DNA from: Sandaracinaceae bacterium
GTDB taxonomy: Bacteria; Myxococcota_A; Polyangia; Polyangiales; Sandaracinaceae
Reading direction: 5' to 3'
Assembly (NCBI GenBank): GCA_019637095.1
Contig: JAHBWG010000025.1
Span: 1 to 64,000 of the forward strand
Length of the DNA: 64,000 nucleotides
The notes below the pieces were generated by a model that saw only the letters and a list, made by a program, of their open reading frames with translations, was not told where the DNA came from and searched no databases. This document shows, one piece after another, positions 56,061 through 63,344 of this stretch (positions are counted from its first letter, which is position 1; the number at the start of each line of letters is the position of its first letter). The position numbers and the translations under genes are program-made.

Positions 56061-56525
56061 ATGTCGACGGACGAGGCCAAGCGGGAGGTGGAGCGGGCGA
56101 GCGCGCTCGTCGAACAGACCATCCGAGCGCTCGGGATCGACCCGACCTCGAGTCGGCGGGATCGGGACGGGCACGTGGTCTACGCCCTGCGTCGCGGCAG
56201 CGCGCGCATCCTGATCGCGATCCACGCGCCGAGCGGCGAGCTCACCGAGGGCCGCATCCGCGTGGTCGCGCCGGTCGTGGTGCTGCCCGCCGCGGATCGC
56301 CAGCTCGAGCTCCTGCGCCACCTCCTCACCGCCAACGCGACCGACCTCGTCGGCGCCGCGTTCGCGATCAGCGGGGACGACGTGGTCGTGGTCGCCGAGC
56401 GCGCGCTCCGCGACCTCGACGCCTCGGAGGTCGACGCGATGGTCCGCAACGTCGGCCGCGTCGCCGACCGCTACGACGACGAGCTCTCGACGGCGTTCTC
56501 GCTCAAGCGCTCGAGCGACGCCTGA
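56061..56525 (+). CDS. YbjN-family protein
   Basis: 154 residues from the ATG at 56061 (MSTDEAKREVERASALVEQ). The pattern is that of the YbjN / type III secretion chaperone-like fold: a first helix, ALRRGSARILIAIHAPSG and RIRVVAPVVVLPA strands, a helix (ADRQLELLRHLLTANAT), then AFAISGDDVVVVAERALRDLDASEVDAMVRNV. Cytoplasmic, no signal peptide. Eleven bp before the barrel gene, so it is in the same operon as the barrel and the 13-haem cytochrome. Compare the other YbjN-like gene at 1661-2119, only distantly similar in sequence. Confidence 0.75.
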   Translation: MSTDEAKREVERASALVEQTIRALGIDPTSSRRDRDGHVVYALRRGSARILIAIHAPSGELTEGRIRVVAPVVVLPAADRQLELLRHLLTANATDLVGAAFAISGDDVVVVAERALRDLDASEVDAMVRNVGRVADRYDDELSTAFSLKRSSDA

Positions 56526-56536
56526 GCAGGACTGCG

Positions 56537-57931
56537 ATGAGCCGGCTCGTCCGGGGCTCGGCCTTCGCGCTCACGCTCTCGCTCGCCACGCCGGCCGCTG
56601 CCTTCGACGTGCGGATCGACAGCGACACGAGCTTCCAGGTCTACGAGGTGCGCTCGCCGGGCGCCCGCGCGTTCATGGCGCGGCGCAGGCTGCTCTCCCA
56701 CCTCGCGCTCACCGTCGGACAGGACCTGACGGAGCGCCGCGACGATGGGACCGCGATCCGCTTCGCCGCCGGCGCGCAGCTGCGCCTCGAGCAGGAGTTC
56801 GGCGAGACGTGCCTGGTCGACCGCGATCTCTGCGTCCGCGCGACCGACGCCGAGGACCCGGGCGCGTGGCAGCCGCTGGCCGCCGACACGCGCCTCGACG
56901 TCCCTGCGGTCTGGGCAGAGATCTCGGGGCTCCCGCTCGGGACCTCGGCCCGCGTGGGCCGCCAGCTCGTGCTCGACGCGCTCGGCTTCGCGCGCTTCGA
57001 CGGCGCGTCCGCGCGGGTCATGCCCGCGTCGTGGATCCGCGTCGAGGCGCTCGCGGGGTGGCTCGTCCGCGGGACGACGATCGCGGGGACGGCGCGATCG
57101 GATCCGCAAGGCGCGTTGCGATTGGCGAGCGCCGTCGACGTGCCCTGGGCGGAGCCCGGCGTCGACAGCTGGGTGGCCGGCGCGAGCGTCGCGGGTGGGC
57201 CGGGCCGGGCGCTCCAGGCGTCGGCGACGTTCCGCCACGCGTGGGAGCCAGGCGGCGCGGTGATCTCGCGGCTCGGCGGCGCGCTCTCGTCGCAGCCGCT
57301 CTCGTGGCTGCGCCTCGACGCGGTCGGCGTGTGGGACTTCCTCACCGCGGAGCTCATCGAGGCGTCGGCGCGTACGAGCCTCGGGGACGGTCCGCTACGC
57401 GTGCACGCCGGCGCCTCGAGGCACGTCCCGCGGTTCGACCCGGGCACGATCTGGGCGTGGTTCGCCGTCGCGCCGATCGCGCAAGCGGAGTTGTCGGTCG
57501 ACTGGACGGTGACGGCGGACTTCGCGATGGGCGGCGCCCTGCGCGGGCGGCACGCGGAGCTCGGCGATCGGCAGACGGACGACCTCGACGGAGGCCTCGA
57601 CGGCTGGGTGCGCGGGCGCTGGGAGGGCTTCGAGCTCAGCGTCTCGGGGTTCGGCTGGTCCGGCGCCCTCGGCCCGCTCGCCGGCGTCTCGCTCGACGTG
57701 CGCCGCCGCTTCTTCGGGTTCATCGAGATCGCGCTCGACGTCTCGGTGTGGCACTTCGACGACCCGAACCGAGCGGACCTCTACGGCGCGGTGGTCTCCG
57801 AGGTGCTCGAGGCGCGCTTCCGCGTCACGAACGAGGTGCTCGTGGTGGCGGAGGTCCAACACGCGGCGAGCCGGGTCATCGGGCATCGCTTCCGCGGCGT
57901 GCTCGCCTTGCGAGTGGAGACGTGGCGGTGA
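56537..57931 (+). CDS. Predicted outer-membrane beta-barrel protein
   Basis: 464 residues. Signal peptide (SAFALTLSLATPAAA, cut before FDVRI). The remainder is built from amphipathic strands of 8-12 residues ending in aromatic girdles, such as LSHLALTVGQDL, AQLRLEQEFG, ARVGRQLVLDAL, WIRVEALAGWLVRG, ASATFRHAWEPGG, WLRLDAVGVWDFL and FIEIALDVSVWHF; the end VLALRVETWR lacks a final Phe but has Trp next to last. Two cysteines (ETCLVDRDLC) lie in a loop. Its stop overlaps the start of a 13-haem cytochrome (GTGA). The pair resembles porin-cytochrome conduits. That is context-based; the barrel call itself comes from strand pattern only. Confidence 0.65.
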   Translation: MSRLVRGSAFALTLSLATPAAAFDVRIDSDTSFQVYEVRSPGARAFMARRRLLSHLALTVGQDLTERRDDGTAIRFAAGAQLRLEQEFGETCLVDRDLCVRATDAEDPGAWQPLAADTRLDVPAVWAEISGLPLGTSARVGRQLVLDALGFARFDGASARVMPASWIRVEALAGWLVRGTTIAGTARSDPQGALRLASAVDVPWAEPGVDSWVAGASVAGGPGRALQASATFRHAWEPGGAVISRLGGALSSQPLSWLRLDAVGVWDFLTAELIEASARTSLGDGPLRVHAGASRHVPRFDPGTIWAWFAVAPIAQAELSVDWTVTADFAMGGALRGRHAELGDRQTDDLDGGLDGWVRGRWEGFELSVSGFGWSGALGPLAGVSLDVRRRFFGFIEIALDVSVWHFDDPNRADLYGAVVSEVLEARFRVTNEVLVVAEVQHAASRVIGHRFRGVLALRVETWR

Positions 57932-59148
57932 GGCGGCGTCCGCTCCTCGTGCTGCTCGTCGCGCTCGGCGCCGTCACCGCGGCGGCGTGGCTCTCCGAGG
58001 TGCGCGCCCAGAGCCGGGCGCCGCGCGCCGCGCTCTCGCGCGCGGCGATGCCGCCCGACCCGCGCGGGCCCTCGCCGCTCGTGTACCCGCCTCAGCGCAT
58101 CGCGCTGCGCATGGATCATTCGCTGCCCGCGCATCGCGAGCTGCGCTGCGTGCGCTGTCACCGCGGCGCCGGCCTCAGCGAGCGCGCCGCGGACTCGCTG
58201 ATCCCGCGCGAGCAGAGCTGCGCGCCGTGCCACGACGCGGACCTGGATCGCGAGGCGCCCACGGCGGCCCGCTGCGGCCTCTGCCACGTCGGTTACCGCG
58301 ACGGAGAGGCTCCCGCCGTCTCGGACTTCCCGACGGCGCGGCTGCGCTTCTCGCACCGCGCACACGTCGCGCGCGGCATGCGGTGCCTCAGCTGCCACGA
58401 GGGCGTCGAGCAGGCCCGCGTGGCCGACCGCCGCCACCTCCCGCGCATGCGCTCCTGCTTCGAGTGCCACGGCCCGCCGGGCTTCGCCGCGGAGGCCTCC
58501 GCGCCGAGCGCGTGCCCCACCTGTCACCTGACCGAGCCCGACGGCCGGCTTCGCGCGCGCTTCCCGGAGGGCGACATGAACCCGCCGGGGTGGCTGCTCG
58601 ACATGCGCCACGACCACGAGTGGCTGGTGCGGCACCGCTGGGTCGGCGCCGATCAGGGCGCGGCGTGCGCGAGCTGCCACGAGGAGTCCGAGTGCGCCGA
58701 GTGCCACGACGGACAGGTCCGCTTGCGACGCATCCACCCCGGCGACTACCTGACGACGCACGTCGCGCAAGCCCGGCGCGACCAGCCGCGCTGCACGTCC
58801 TGCCATCAGGTCTCGACGTTCTGCACCGAGTGCCACGCGCGGCTCGGGCTCTCGCCGCTGAGCGCGCCGTCCGTGCGCGCGACCGAGCGCTACCACCCGC
58901 CGCCCGCCGTCTGGGTGCGCGGGCCCATCCGGCACGCGCTCGAGGCGCGGCGCGCGATGAGCACGTGCGCGAGCTGCCATGCGGAGCGCGACTGCGTCGT
59001 CTGCCATGGCGCGCTCGGCATCGGCGCCGGCCTCAGCCCTCACCCGCCGTCCTTCCTCGCGAGCTGCGGCGCGGCGCTCGCGACGAACGCGCGGGCGTGC
59101 GTCACGTGCCATGGAGACCTCGACGCGCTCCGGCGTCGCTGCCTCTGA
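57928..59148 (+). CDS. 13-haem c-type cytochrome
   Basis: 406 residues. GTG at 57928 overlapping the barrel gene stop. Signal peptide or anchor (LLVLLVALGAVTAAAWLSEVRA). Thirteen CxxCH motifs at about residues 74, 98, 116, 153, 177, 196, 247, 256, 289, 299, 347, 356 and 391. Most are preceded by the FSHRAH- or MDHSLPAH-type His pairs typical of bis-His class III / MtrA-like cytochromes. Closely packed pairs (247/256, 289/299, 347/356) suggest stacked haems. With a barrel upstream, it could form the core of a trans-outer-membrane electron conduit. Alternative: periplasmic electron shuttle to a reductase. Confidence 0.85.
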   Translation: MRRRPLLVLLVALGAVTAAAWLSEVRAQSRAPRAALSRAAMPPDPRGPSPLVYPPQRIALRMDHSLPAHRELRCVRCHRGAGLSERAADSLIPREQSCAPCHDADLDREAPTAARCGLCHVGYRDGEAPAVSDFPTARLRFSHRAHVARGMRCLSCHEGVEQARVADRRHLPRMRSCFECHGPPGFAAEASAPSACPTCHLTEPDGRLRARFPEGDMNPPGWLLDMRHDHEWLVRHRWVGADQGAACASCHEESECAECHDGQVRLRRIHPGDYLTTHVAQARRDQPRCTSCHQVSTFCTECHARLGLSPLSAPSVRATERYHPPPAVWVRGPIRHALEARRAMSTCASCHAERDCVVCHGALGIGAGLSPHPPSFLASCGAALATNARACVTCHGDLDALRRRCL

Positions 59149-60769: not shown

Positions 60770-61024
60770 GTGAAAGAGCTTGCCCGGTTCCTACTTTCGA
60801 ACGCACAGCTCGATTTCTCGGGCGAGGTCTCGATCGATCAGATCCGCCAGTTCCTGCGAGAGGACGACTCCCGCGAGGCGCGGACGCTCCTGGCGAAGCT
60901 CATCGAGGACAAAGGCGTCGACGACATGCTCGTGACGGTCGCCGACTGCCTCAAGGAGCACATCCCGAACGGGATCGACGAAGAGGTCATCCGCCAGCAG
61001 CTCCAGTTCTACAGCGAGAGTTGA
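60770..61024 (+). CDS. Small acidic cytoplasmic protein
   Basis: 84 residues. GTG at 60770 with GGAGG. A compact helical protein without cysteine except one (VADCLKEH); it opens with KELARFLLSNAQLDFSGEV and ends QQLQFYSES. Many acidic residues (IDQIRQFLREDDSREARTLLAKLIEDKGVDD). Soluble, presumably regulatory or structural. It overlaps the following lipoprotein gene start. The strong promoter and ribosome site show that it is a real gene. Not recognised. Confidence 0.75.
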   Translation: MKELARFLLSNAQLDFSGEVSIDQIRQFLREDDSREARTLLAKLIEDKGVDDMLVTVADCLKEHIPNGIDEEVIRQQLQFYSES

Positions 61025-61809
61025 GGCCGGCAGCGCTCGCGCTGGTCGCGCTGGCCACGGCGGCGTGCGATCTGCCGAGCTCGCGCGAGCTCGGCACGGG
61101 CCCGGTGGTGGTCGCGAGCGAGCCTGCCGACGGCGCGACCGGGGTCGACCGCAACGGGCCGTTCCGGTTCGGCTTCGATCGTCCCATCTTCCCTCGCGAC
61201 GCCCACCGCGGGCGCGTCCGCATCCAGAGCGGCGCGCGCGGCGCGTTCGTGTCGGTGTGGCTCGAGCCGGTGGCGCGGGCTCTCTCGATCGAGCTCGAGG
61301 ATGGGCCGCTCGCGCCCGACGTCCGCTACCGGATGATCGCCGAGGGCATCCACGATCTCTCGCTCGTTCCGATGGCGGAGCCCGTCGAGATCGTGTTCGG
61401 CACCGGGCCCGACGCGTCGCCGCCCTCCGCGCGCACCGAGACGTTCGAGGCGGTCGCGCCGACGCTGGCGCGCTGCGCGTCGGCGGGCTGTCACGGCGCG
61501 GAGGCGCCGGCGCTCGGCCTCGACCTCTCGAGCGCCGAGGGGATCCGCGCGACCGCCATCGGGGTCGTCGCGGAGCGCTCGCGCGTCGGGACCCAGGCCG
61601 ACCGCCCGTGGCACGGCGCCCCGACCCTCGCGGGGCTCGCGCGCATCGACGTCGTGGGCGGGGTGGGGCGGCCCGCCCAGAGCTTCCTGATGTACACGCT
61701 GCTGGAGGAGGGCGGCGCAGGCCACTACGAGCCGCTCGCGGATGCTCCGTCGCGCGAGGAGCTGCTCCGACTCTCGTACTGGATCCGCGCCGGCGCGCCG
61801 ACCCCGTGA
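61021..61809 (+). CDS. Lipoprotein with a CxxxxCH motif and an Ig-like N-terminal domain
   Basis: 262 residues from a TTG at 61021 that overlaps the preceding stop (TTGA). TTG was chosen because it gives a proper lipoprotein signal (RPAALALVALATAACD). The first domain, VVVASEPADGATGVDRNGPFRFGFDRPIFP, fits a bacterial Ig-like (Big_5) type. Later RCASAGCHG gives a CxxxxCH motif, known as an atypical c-haem site in some multihaem proteins (for example in Geobacter and myxobacteria), and LMYTLLEEGGAGHYEPL is typical of the cytochrome-like exported proteins of this group. Haem binding is not proven. The TTG start and the haem are uncertain. Confidence 0.7.
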   Translation: MRPAALALVALATAACDLPSSRELGTGPVVVASEPADGATGVDRNGPFRFGFDRPIFPRDAHRGRVRIQSGARGAFVSVWLEPVARALSIELEDGPLAPDVRYRMIAEGIHDLSLVPMAEPVEIVFGTGPDASPPSARTETFEAVAPTLARCASAGCHGAEAPALGLDLSSAEGIRATAIGVVAERSRVGTQADRPWHGAPTLAGLARIDVVGGVGRPAQSFLMYTLLEEGGAGHYEPLADAPSREELLRLSYWIRAGAPTP

Positions 61810-61858: not shown

Positions 61859-62764
61859 ATGACCACTCCCGCCCATCTGCGTGTGGTGCCCGTCATCCTC
61901 CTGGGGCTCCTCTCGCTCGGCGCGAGCTGCAGCGGCGACGCGGACGACCGCGCCGGGAGCGGCGGCACCGGGAGCGAGGGCAGCGAGCGCCCGCCGGCCC
62001 GTTCGCGGGTCGAATCGCTCGAGCCCGTCGACATAGGGGAGCTCACGGGCTCGGAGCGGCGGATCTGGGTCGAGCTGATCAACGACCAGCTGTCGCCCTG
62101 CGGCGAGCCGATCAGCGTGGGGCGCTGCGTGGCCGAGCAGCGGTCGTGCCGCGCCTGCGTGCCGGCCGCGCGCTACCTCGTGCGGCTCATCCAGGAGGGC
62201 TACGAGCGGCAGGAGATCGAGGCGCTCTACGAGAGCCGCTACGGCGCGAGCACCCGCGTCGAGCTCGACATCGAGAACGCGCCGAGCCGCGGCTCGCCGA
62301 TGGCGCAGGTGACGATCGTCGAGTTCTCGGACTTCGAGTGCCCCTACTGCGGCCGCGCTCACCCCATGCTGCAACAGGTCTTGCGCGAGTTCGAGGGGCG
62401 TGTCCGGCTCGTCTTCCTGCACTTCCCGCTGAGCAACCACCCGCACGCGATGCCCGCCGCGCGAGCCGCGGTGGCCGCGGGCAACCAGGGCCGGTTCTGG
62501 GAGATGCACGACCTGCTCTTCGAGCATCAGCAGCAGCTCGAGCCCGAGCACCTCGATCGTTACGCCGAGGAGCTCGGCCTCGACATGGCGCGGTTCCGCG
62601 CCGATCTCGAGTCCTCGCGCACGCAGGGACGGATCGAGGCGAACAAGGAGATGGGGCGCGCCGCGGGCGTCGAGGGGACGCCGGCGATCTTCGTCAACGG
62701 CCGCCGCTACCGCGAGCCGCCGCAGCAGCTCGCCGAGTATCTGCGAGAAGCGCTCGATGAATGA
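61859..62764 (+). CDS. DsbA-like thioredoxin-fold protein
   Basis: 301 residues. Signal peptide (LRVVPVILLGLLSLGASC) with a possible lipobox. An N-terminal region with several cysteines (LSPCGEPISVGRCVAEQRSCRAC, residues 79-100), then the DsbA fold from residue 150: VTIVEFSDFECPYCGRAHP with the active-site CPYC at 161-164, LVFLHFPLSNHPHAMPAARAAVAA and the cis-proline loop GTPAIFVNG. CPYC is typical of thiol oxidases/isomerases in this class. It lies 50 bp after the CxxxxCH lipoprotein and 62 bp before a TlpA-like gene. Likely works in oxidative folding or haem-attachment chemistry in the periplasm. Confidence 0.88.
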   Translation: MTTPAHLRVVPVILLGLLSLGASCSGDADDRAGSGGTGSEGSERPPARSRVESLEPVDIGELTGSERRIWVELINDQLSPCGEPISVGRCVAEQRSCRACVPAARYLVRLIQEGYERQEIEALYESRYGASTRVELDIENAPSRGSPMAQVTIVEFSDFECPYCGRAHPMLQQVLREFEGRVRLVFLHFPLSNHPHAMPAARAAVAAGNQGRFWEMHDLLFEHQQQLEPEHLDRYAEELGLDMARFRADLESSRTQGRIEANKEMGRAAGVEGTPAIFVNGRRYREPPQQLAEYLREALDE

Positions 62765-62825
62765 CCCCGTCCTTGGATAGGATGGGGTTGAATCGTCCCC
62801 CCACTCCGTCGTCCAAGGGAGCGTC

Positions 62826-63344
62826 ATGAACCGGTTGTCCCGCATCTTCCGCCCCATCCCCTCGGTCCTCGCGGCCACCGCCGTCTGCGCCATCGCCGCC
62901 TCCGCGTACGCCCTGGAGGTCGGCGCGCGCGCGCCCGAGATCGGTCTGCGCGACACCGAGGGGAACAACGTCACGATCGCTTCGTTGCGCGGCAACGTCG
63001 TGCTCGTCGATTTCTGGGCATCGTGGTGCGAGCCGTGCGCGGAGGAGATGCCCGTGCTCGAGCGCCTCTACACGACGTACCGCAGCCAGGGCTTCCGGGT
63101 CGTCGCCGTCTCGCAGGACCGCACCGCCGAGAACATGCAGAGCTTCCTGCGGCAGCACCGCGTGTCGTTCCCGGTCGTGCACGACGCGCAGCACGCGGTC
63201 GCGGGCCGCTACTCGCCGCCGCGCATGCCGTCGAGCTACATCATCGATCGGCAGGGTGTCGTGCGGCACATCCACGAGGGCTACCGCGCTGGCGACGCGC
63301 GCACGATCGAGCAGCACGTGCGCGCGCTCCTCGCCCAGCGCTGA
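62826..63344 (+). CDS. TlpA-family thioredoxin-like protein
   Basis: 172 residues. Signal peptide (LAATAVCAIAASAYA, cut before LEVGARAPE). TlpA/ResA fold: APEIGLRDTEGNNVTIASLRGNVVLVDFWASWCEPC has the CEPC active site at 68-71, VVAVSQDRTAENMQSFL and the cis-proline loop MPSSYIIDRQGVVRHI. The TlpA family reduces disulfides and is often linked to cytochrome c maturation. Here it is close to a DsbA-like protein and to predicted haem proteins, which supports this role. SD GGGAGCG lies just before the ATG. Confidence 0.9.
   Translation: MNRLSRIFRPIPSVLAATAVCAIAASAYALEVGARAPEIGLRDTEGNNVTIASLRGNVVLVDFWASWCEPCAEEMPVLERLYTTYRSQGFRVVAVSQDRTAENMQSFLRQHRVSFPVVHDAQHAVAGRYSPPRMPSSYIIDRQGVVRHIHEGYRAGDARTIEQHVRALLAQR

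Follow-up and report, generated by a model that had tools for sequence, protein, structure and literature searches.

Relation to known porin-cytochrome systems

Most work on extracellular electron transfer concerns anaerobic bacteria that reduce metals and bacteria that oxidise iron. The MtrAB, PioAB and MtoAB systems follow a two-component logic, in which a signal-bearing barrel is combined with a chain of c-type haems. The MtrAB type has 10 haems, its barrel is predicted to comprise 28 strands, and MtrAB alone is reported to pass electrons across liposome membranes (PMC4245776). In the porin-cytochrome (Pcc) system of Geobacter (OmbB-OmaB-OmcB), OmaB carries 8 haems and the OmcB-type partner carries 12, and Pcc porins have 18-22 predicted strands (PMC4245776). 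Additionally, Shi et al. (2014) described two-gene group IV Pcc clusters in Anaeromyxobacter, which encode cytochromes with 12 or 14 haems and contain no outer-membrane cytochrome gene, and argued that they could bridge the membrane even in the absence of an outer partner (PMC4245776).

The locus described here lies in a 64 kb window, the whole stretch of DNA that was analysed (contig JAHBWG010000025.1 of a Sandaracinaceae bacterium), and contains the gene of a predicted outer-membrane barrel followed by that of a 13-haem c-type cytochrome. We propose, with a probability of about 0.8, that the two products form a stand-alone conduit for electrons across the outer membrane. As in Pcc, a porin-like barrel gene adjoins the gene of an exported multihaem c-type cytochrome, and the 22 strands of the barrel model fall within the Pcc range; the outer-membrane multihaem cytochrome that is usual, not obligatory, in Pcc clusters is not found near the pair of the window and is present in a sister clade of the family. 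Among published systems, the two-gene Pcc of Anaeromyxobacter comes closest in architecture, since it belongs to the same phylum and likewise consists of a porin-like protein and a periplasmic multihaem cytochrome; compared by description, its cytochromes have 338-344 residues (PMC4245776), whereas the one found here has 406 residues with 6+7 haems. No Anaeromyxobacter locus is present among the named-genome matches. The Geobacter system, also compared by description, shares the porin-like protein and the adjacent periplasmic multihaem cytochrome, and the likeness extends to the sister clade, in which large multihaem genes also lie beside the barrel. However, the Geobacter system includes an OmcB-type partner, and the pair in the window has no such gene nearby.

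The first-pass annotation had likened the locus to the porin-cytochrome pairs of Shewanella (MtrAB) and Geobacter; a sequence kinship with MtrAB is not borne out by the HMM comparison. The profile TIGR03509 (MtrB/PioB) has no match at E≤1 among 36 members of the barrel family, nor in the source genome, and a relationship to MtrB/PioB is rejected on this basis. The profile TIGR03508 (ten-haem MtrA/DmsE type) scores 17.2 bits against the cytochrome, below its cut-off of 192.2, and MtrA itself (6r2q_A) yields a weak match over part of the length, so that a relationship to MtrA was likewise set aside. The 13 haems and 22 strands also differ from the 10 haems and 28-strand barrel of the MtrAB type. 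The N-terminal half of the cytochrome (residues about 50-186) matches ActA of alternative complex III and QrcA, which are periplasmic subunits of inner-membrane complexes and, unlike the cytochrome described here, have no barrel partner. In the titles and abstracts of the open-licence papers searched, extracellular electron transfer is not described for Sorangium, Sandaracinaceae or Polyangia, and those retrieved for porin-cytochrome together with Myxococcota concern other organisms or themes.

Gene organization of the locus

Three open reading frames follow one another on the forward strand, as had been noticed in the first reading of this DNA: a YbjN-domain protein of 154 residues (56061..56525; PF10722, E 2.5e-12), the porin-like barrel of 464 residues with an N-terminal signal peptide (56537..57931), and the cytochrome of 406 residues with an N-terminal signal sequence (57928..59148; PF14522, E 1e-16). 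The first two genes are separated by 11 bp, and the stop of the barrel gene overlaps the start of the cytochrome gene in a GTGA (57928..57931), an NTGA overlap that is frequent in relatives. The cytochrome starts with the GTG of this overlap, and an alternative in-frame GTG at 57922 would give a protein of 408 residues. The GC fractions at the three codon positions (0.74-0.75/0.55-0.61/0.94-0.95) and the dN/dS values of 0.11-0.43 between relatives show, as sequence statistics, that the genes are real and under selection.

No signal peptide is seen in the YbjN product, and its gene adjoins the pair only in the family of the window (f1), in f5 and in one f12 locus. Because this adjacency is confined to some families, a place for YbjN in the conduit is unlikely, and its earlier inclusion as a third member is rejected; it is probably a local companion gene outside the conduit.

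Predicted structure of the barrel

The barrel protein of the window has no Pfam or NCBIfam family match, and among its relatives (n = 36) notable Pfam matches are confined to six members, which show weak similarity to a generic outer-membrane barrel. An AlphaFold2 model built on the alignment of relatives (mean pLDDT 82.8, pTM 0.75) reveals an open barrel of 22 strands, which agrees with the signal peptide and outer-membrane barrel previously read from the sequence and does not indicate a soluble protein. Hydrophobicity alternates in 22/22 strands, strongly in most, and hydrophobic residues occupy 69% of the positions on the lipid side and 28% on the lumen side, the faces being assigned by hydrophobicity alone. 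With this assignment, the conserved strand arginines R51, R83, R139, R233, R338, R451 and R453 point into the lumen, and R50 and R142 do not.

The closest folds to the model are open barrels, namely pilus ushers and porins, with the highest TM-scores to wide-pore ushers. The barrel could alternatively serve to secrete or assemble the cytochrome, which would then end fully outside the cell. The wide open shape and the ushers among the best structural matches would agree with such a pore, and the conserved overlap of the genes is what a dedicated exporter might show; however, a barrel of 464 residues is too small for an usher plug and periplasmic domains, and the sister clade has further large multihaem proteins, encoded separately, as candidates for an outside position. 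A role in export is accordingly regarded as highly improbable.

Haem architecture of the cytochrome

Exactly 13 CxxCH motifs are counted in the 406 residues of the cytochrome, as had been claimed, and only 2 others occur in all six frames of the window, which is far beyond chance. The description of this protein as having one of the highest haem densities for its size was overstated, since one haem per 31 residues is high and not extreme, and neighbouring clades reach 26 motifs in a 640-residue frame. The cytochrome matches the Cytochrome_C7 and Cytochrom_c3_2 families, and its architecture is 6+7 haems, in which an ActA/c7-like half is joined to a seven-haem core. The N-terminal half (haems 1-6; 58093..58542, forward strand) gives profile matches over residues about 50-200 to 3ov0, 6lod, 6f0k (ActA), PpcA and c7 cytochromes and is modelled confidently. 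The C-terminal half is modelled with low confidence, and a fold search with the whole cytochrome model recovers the ActA-like part and nothing beyond.

The core (residues 226-406, haems 7-13; 58603..59145, forward strand) is the better conserved part, with a mean pairwise identity of 0.53 against 0.41 for the N-terminal half. Its seven haems are matched by seven distal histidines that do not vary within the order, and among 57 sequences from across the phylum these histidines are invariant or at least 90% conserved; Cys380 and Cys405 are also invariant in the order. The N-terminal half contributes three further invariant distal histidines, which brings the number to 10, and an invariant Met174, and its haem ligation therefore appears less certain than that of the core.

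With three invariant distal histidines and Met174, some haems of the N-terminal half may be differently ligated, as could be the case if the complex were a surface reductase or oxidase, its cytochrome acting directly on a specific small molecule at the outer face or within the barrel. The uncertain ligands, however, sit in the half that is absent from the minimal form of the protein (see below), and the conserved distal histidine of every core haem fits electron transfer rather than catalysis. Profile comparisons reveal no full-length similarity to a known multihaem enzyme either, and we consider an enzymatic function very unlikely.

Conservation and distribution of the pair

Of 57 genomes from the same family and order, 39 carry the barrel, and nearly every barrel match in the order is adjoined by a 13-haem (rarely 12-haem) frame. 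From a collection of named genomes, 80 cytochrome loci were retained; the barrel gene is directly upstream of the cytochrome gene in 77 of them, in the remaining three, the cytochrome frame begins at the edge of the contig, and all loci but one have 13 motifs. The carriers include Sorangium cellulosum, Polyangium, Minicystis rosea, Nannocystis and Sandaracinaceae. A four-base stop/start overlap joins the two genes in 69 of the 77 named loci; within the order, 32 of 38 loci show an NTGA overlap. Across the phylum, the profile of the cytochrome core matches 146 of 284 sampled Myxococcota genomes; several genomes (among them G157, G236 and G264) have a second, diverged copy of the core.

This phylum-wide pairing, together with the 77 of 80 named loci, rejects a coincidence of two unrelated genes, and plasmid-borne spread was set aside, as no plasmid match is found. 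The distances of barrel and cytochrome are correlated (r 0.82, Mantel p 0.0005), which is expected of joint vertical descent and is by itself no proof of contact.

A tree built from 67 rows of the seven-haem core separates two clades of 18 and 49 loci with a support of 100/100. The loci of the 18-locus sister clade have extra large multihaem genes nearby, with up to 34 motifs and often directly upstream of the barrel gene, which is the Pcc layout; in the 49-locus clade, to which the two-gene pair of the window belongs, no large extra multihaem genes are present in the flanks examined. Frames with 26 and 34 CxxCH motifs (L124:9676-11595 and L133:4138-7659, respectively) adjoin distant relatives of the pair. 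Within the 49-locus clade, six loci, in six genomes of one family, encode the seven-haem core alone with the barrel; this form has a single origin. The most economical interpretation makes the seven-haem core the working partner of the barrel and the six-haem half an extension on the periplasmic side. Some genomes (e.g., G157 and G236) contain both forms. As one clade keeps the core alone with a barrel, the core probably fills the barrel.

The distribution also bears on the explanation that the cytochrome is a soluble periplasmic store or shuttle of electrons and that the barrel is an ordinary porin, co-transcribed by chance. It is opposed by a pairing that is kept phylum-wide and in every named locus with a long enough contig, by the retention of the barrel in the core-only forms, and by the invariant strand arginines, which suggest a conserved lumen content and not a generic pore. 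Although the c7-like N-terminal half, the lack of a match of the barrel to a known conduit family and the ordinary porins among the best matches of its model would agree with a store or shuttle, we hold this explanation to be unlikely.

Host genome and neighbouring genes

The source genome encodes three haem-copper oxidases and an ActA-like pentahaem protein, and a genome-wide search finds no NapC/CymA-type quinol dehydrogenase, no RuBisCO and no MtrB/PioB protein. Judged by its gene content, the host looks like an aerobic heterotroph, and the three oxidases suggest that, as an aerobe, it has no evident need to respire extracellularly. No outer-membrane or extracellular multihaem cytochrome gene is found near the pair, in agreement with the first-pass annotation, which had found no extracellular decahaem partner in the window. 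A decahaem protein with a lipoprotein-type signal (G000:C21:16422-19355; L253:4135-7356, in the same genome) was considered as the missing partner and is unsupported, since its occurrence is patchy: 11 of 47 relatives have it at E≤0.001, including two of the barrel-less family f11.

Farther along the forward strand of the window, an 82-residue protein (60776-61021) that has no Pfam match above cut-off is widely conserved in the order, and in some families its gene comes directly after that of the cytochrome, in the same orientation. A further gene (61039-61806, forward strand) encodes a protein that resembles a lipoprotein and combines a bacterial Ig-like domain with an atypical CX4CH motif (CASAGCH). 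This protein is encoded close to the pair in several families of the order as well; in locus L055, a relative has CxxCH at the equivalent position, and the protein may thus bind haem. This gene is followed by a row of DsbA-like and TlpA/AhpC-like thioredoxin proteins (61859-63341, forward strand), which are conserved neighbours in several relatives and possibly have a role in cytochrome maturation.

Proposed mechanism and implications

The predicted barrel, the phylum-wide coupling of the two genes and the Pcc-like extra multihaem genes of relatives all point to a trans-outer-membrane conduit. In such a conduit, barrel and cytochrome would form one outer-membrane complex, with the 22-strand barrel as an insulating sheath and the seven-haem core threaded through it as a chain of bis-His haems. 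The six-haem half, which probably faces the periplasm, would stay there and exchange electrons with periplasmic carriers, fed for example by alternative complex III, and with its 13 haems the cytochrome may extend to the surface by itself, with no need of a separate extracellular cytochrome. Electrons would more readily be expected to flow outward to an extracellular acceptor (about 55%) than inward (about 35%; other, 10%), and outward flow at low oxygen is slightly favoured.

The new elements are the breadth of the family, the 6+7 design and the occurrence in aerobic myxobacteria. If the Anaeromyxobacter Pcc belongs to the same family, the present loci are a large extension of a known family and not a new variant. 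More tentatively, and at somewhat less than even odds, the pair may be a phylum-wide, mainly vertically inherited stand-alone wire, composed of the barrel and the 6+7-haem cytochrome and reducible to seven haems, through which aerobic myxobacteria that live as predators or degrade cellulose exchange electrons with the environment. The minimal form with seven haems hints at the part of the cytochrome that must sit within the barrel, and the pair is directly testable because cultured species carry both genes. If true, the presence of such a wire in Sorangium, Polyangium, Minicystis and Sandaracinaceae would widen the range of extracellular electron transfer to large-genome, oxygen-respiring social bacteria, and would raise the question of the partner with which these bacteria exchange electrons.
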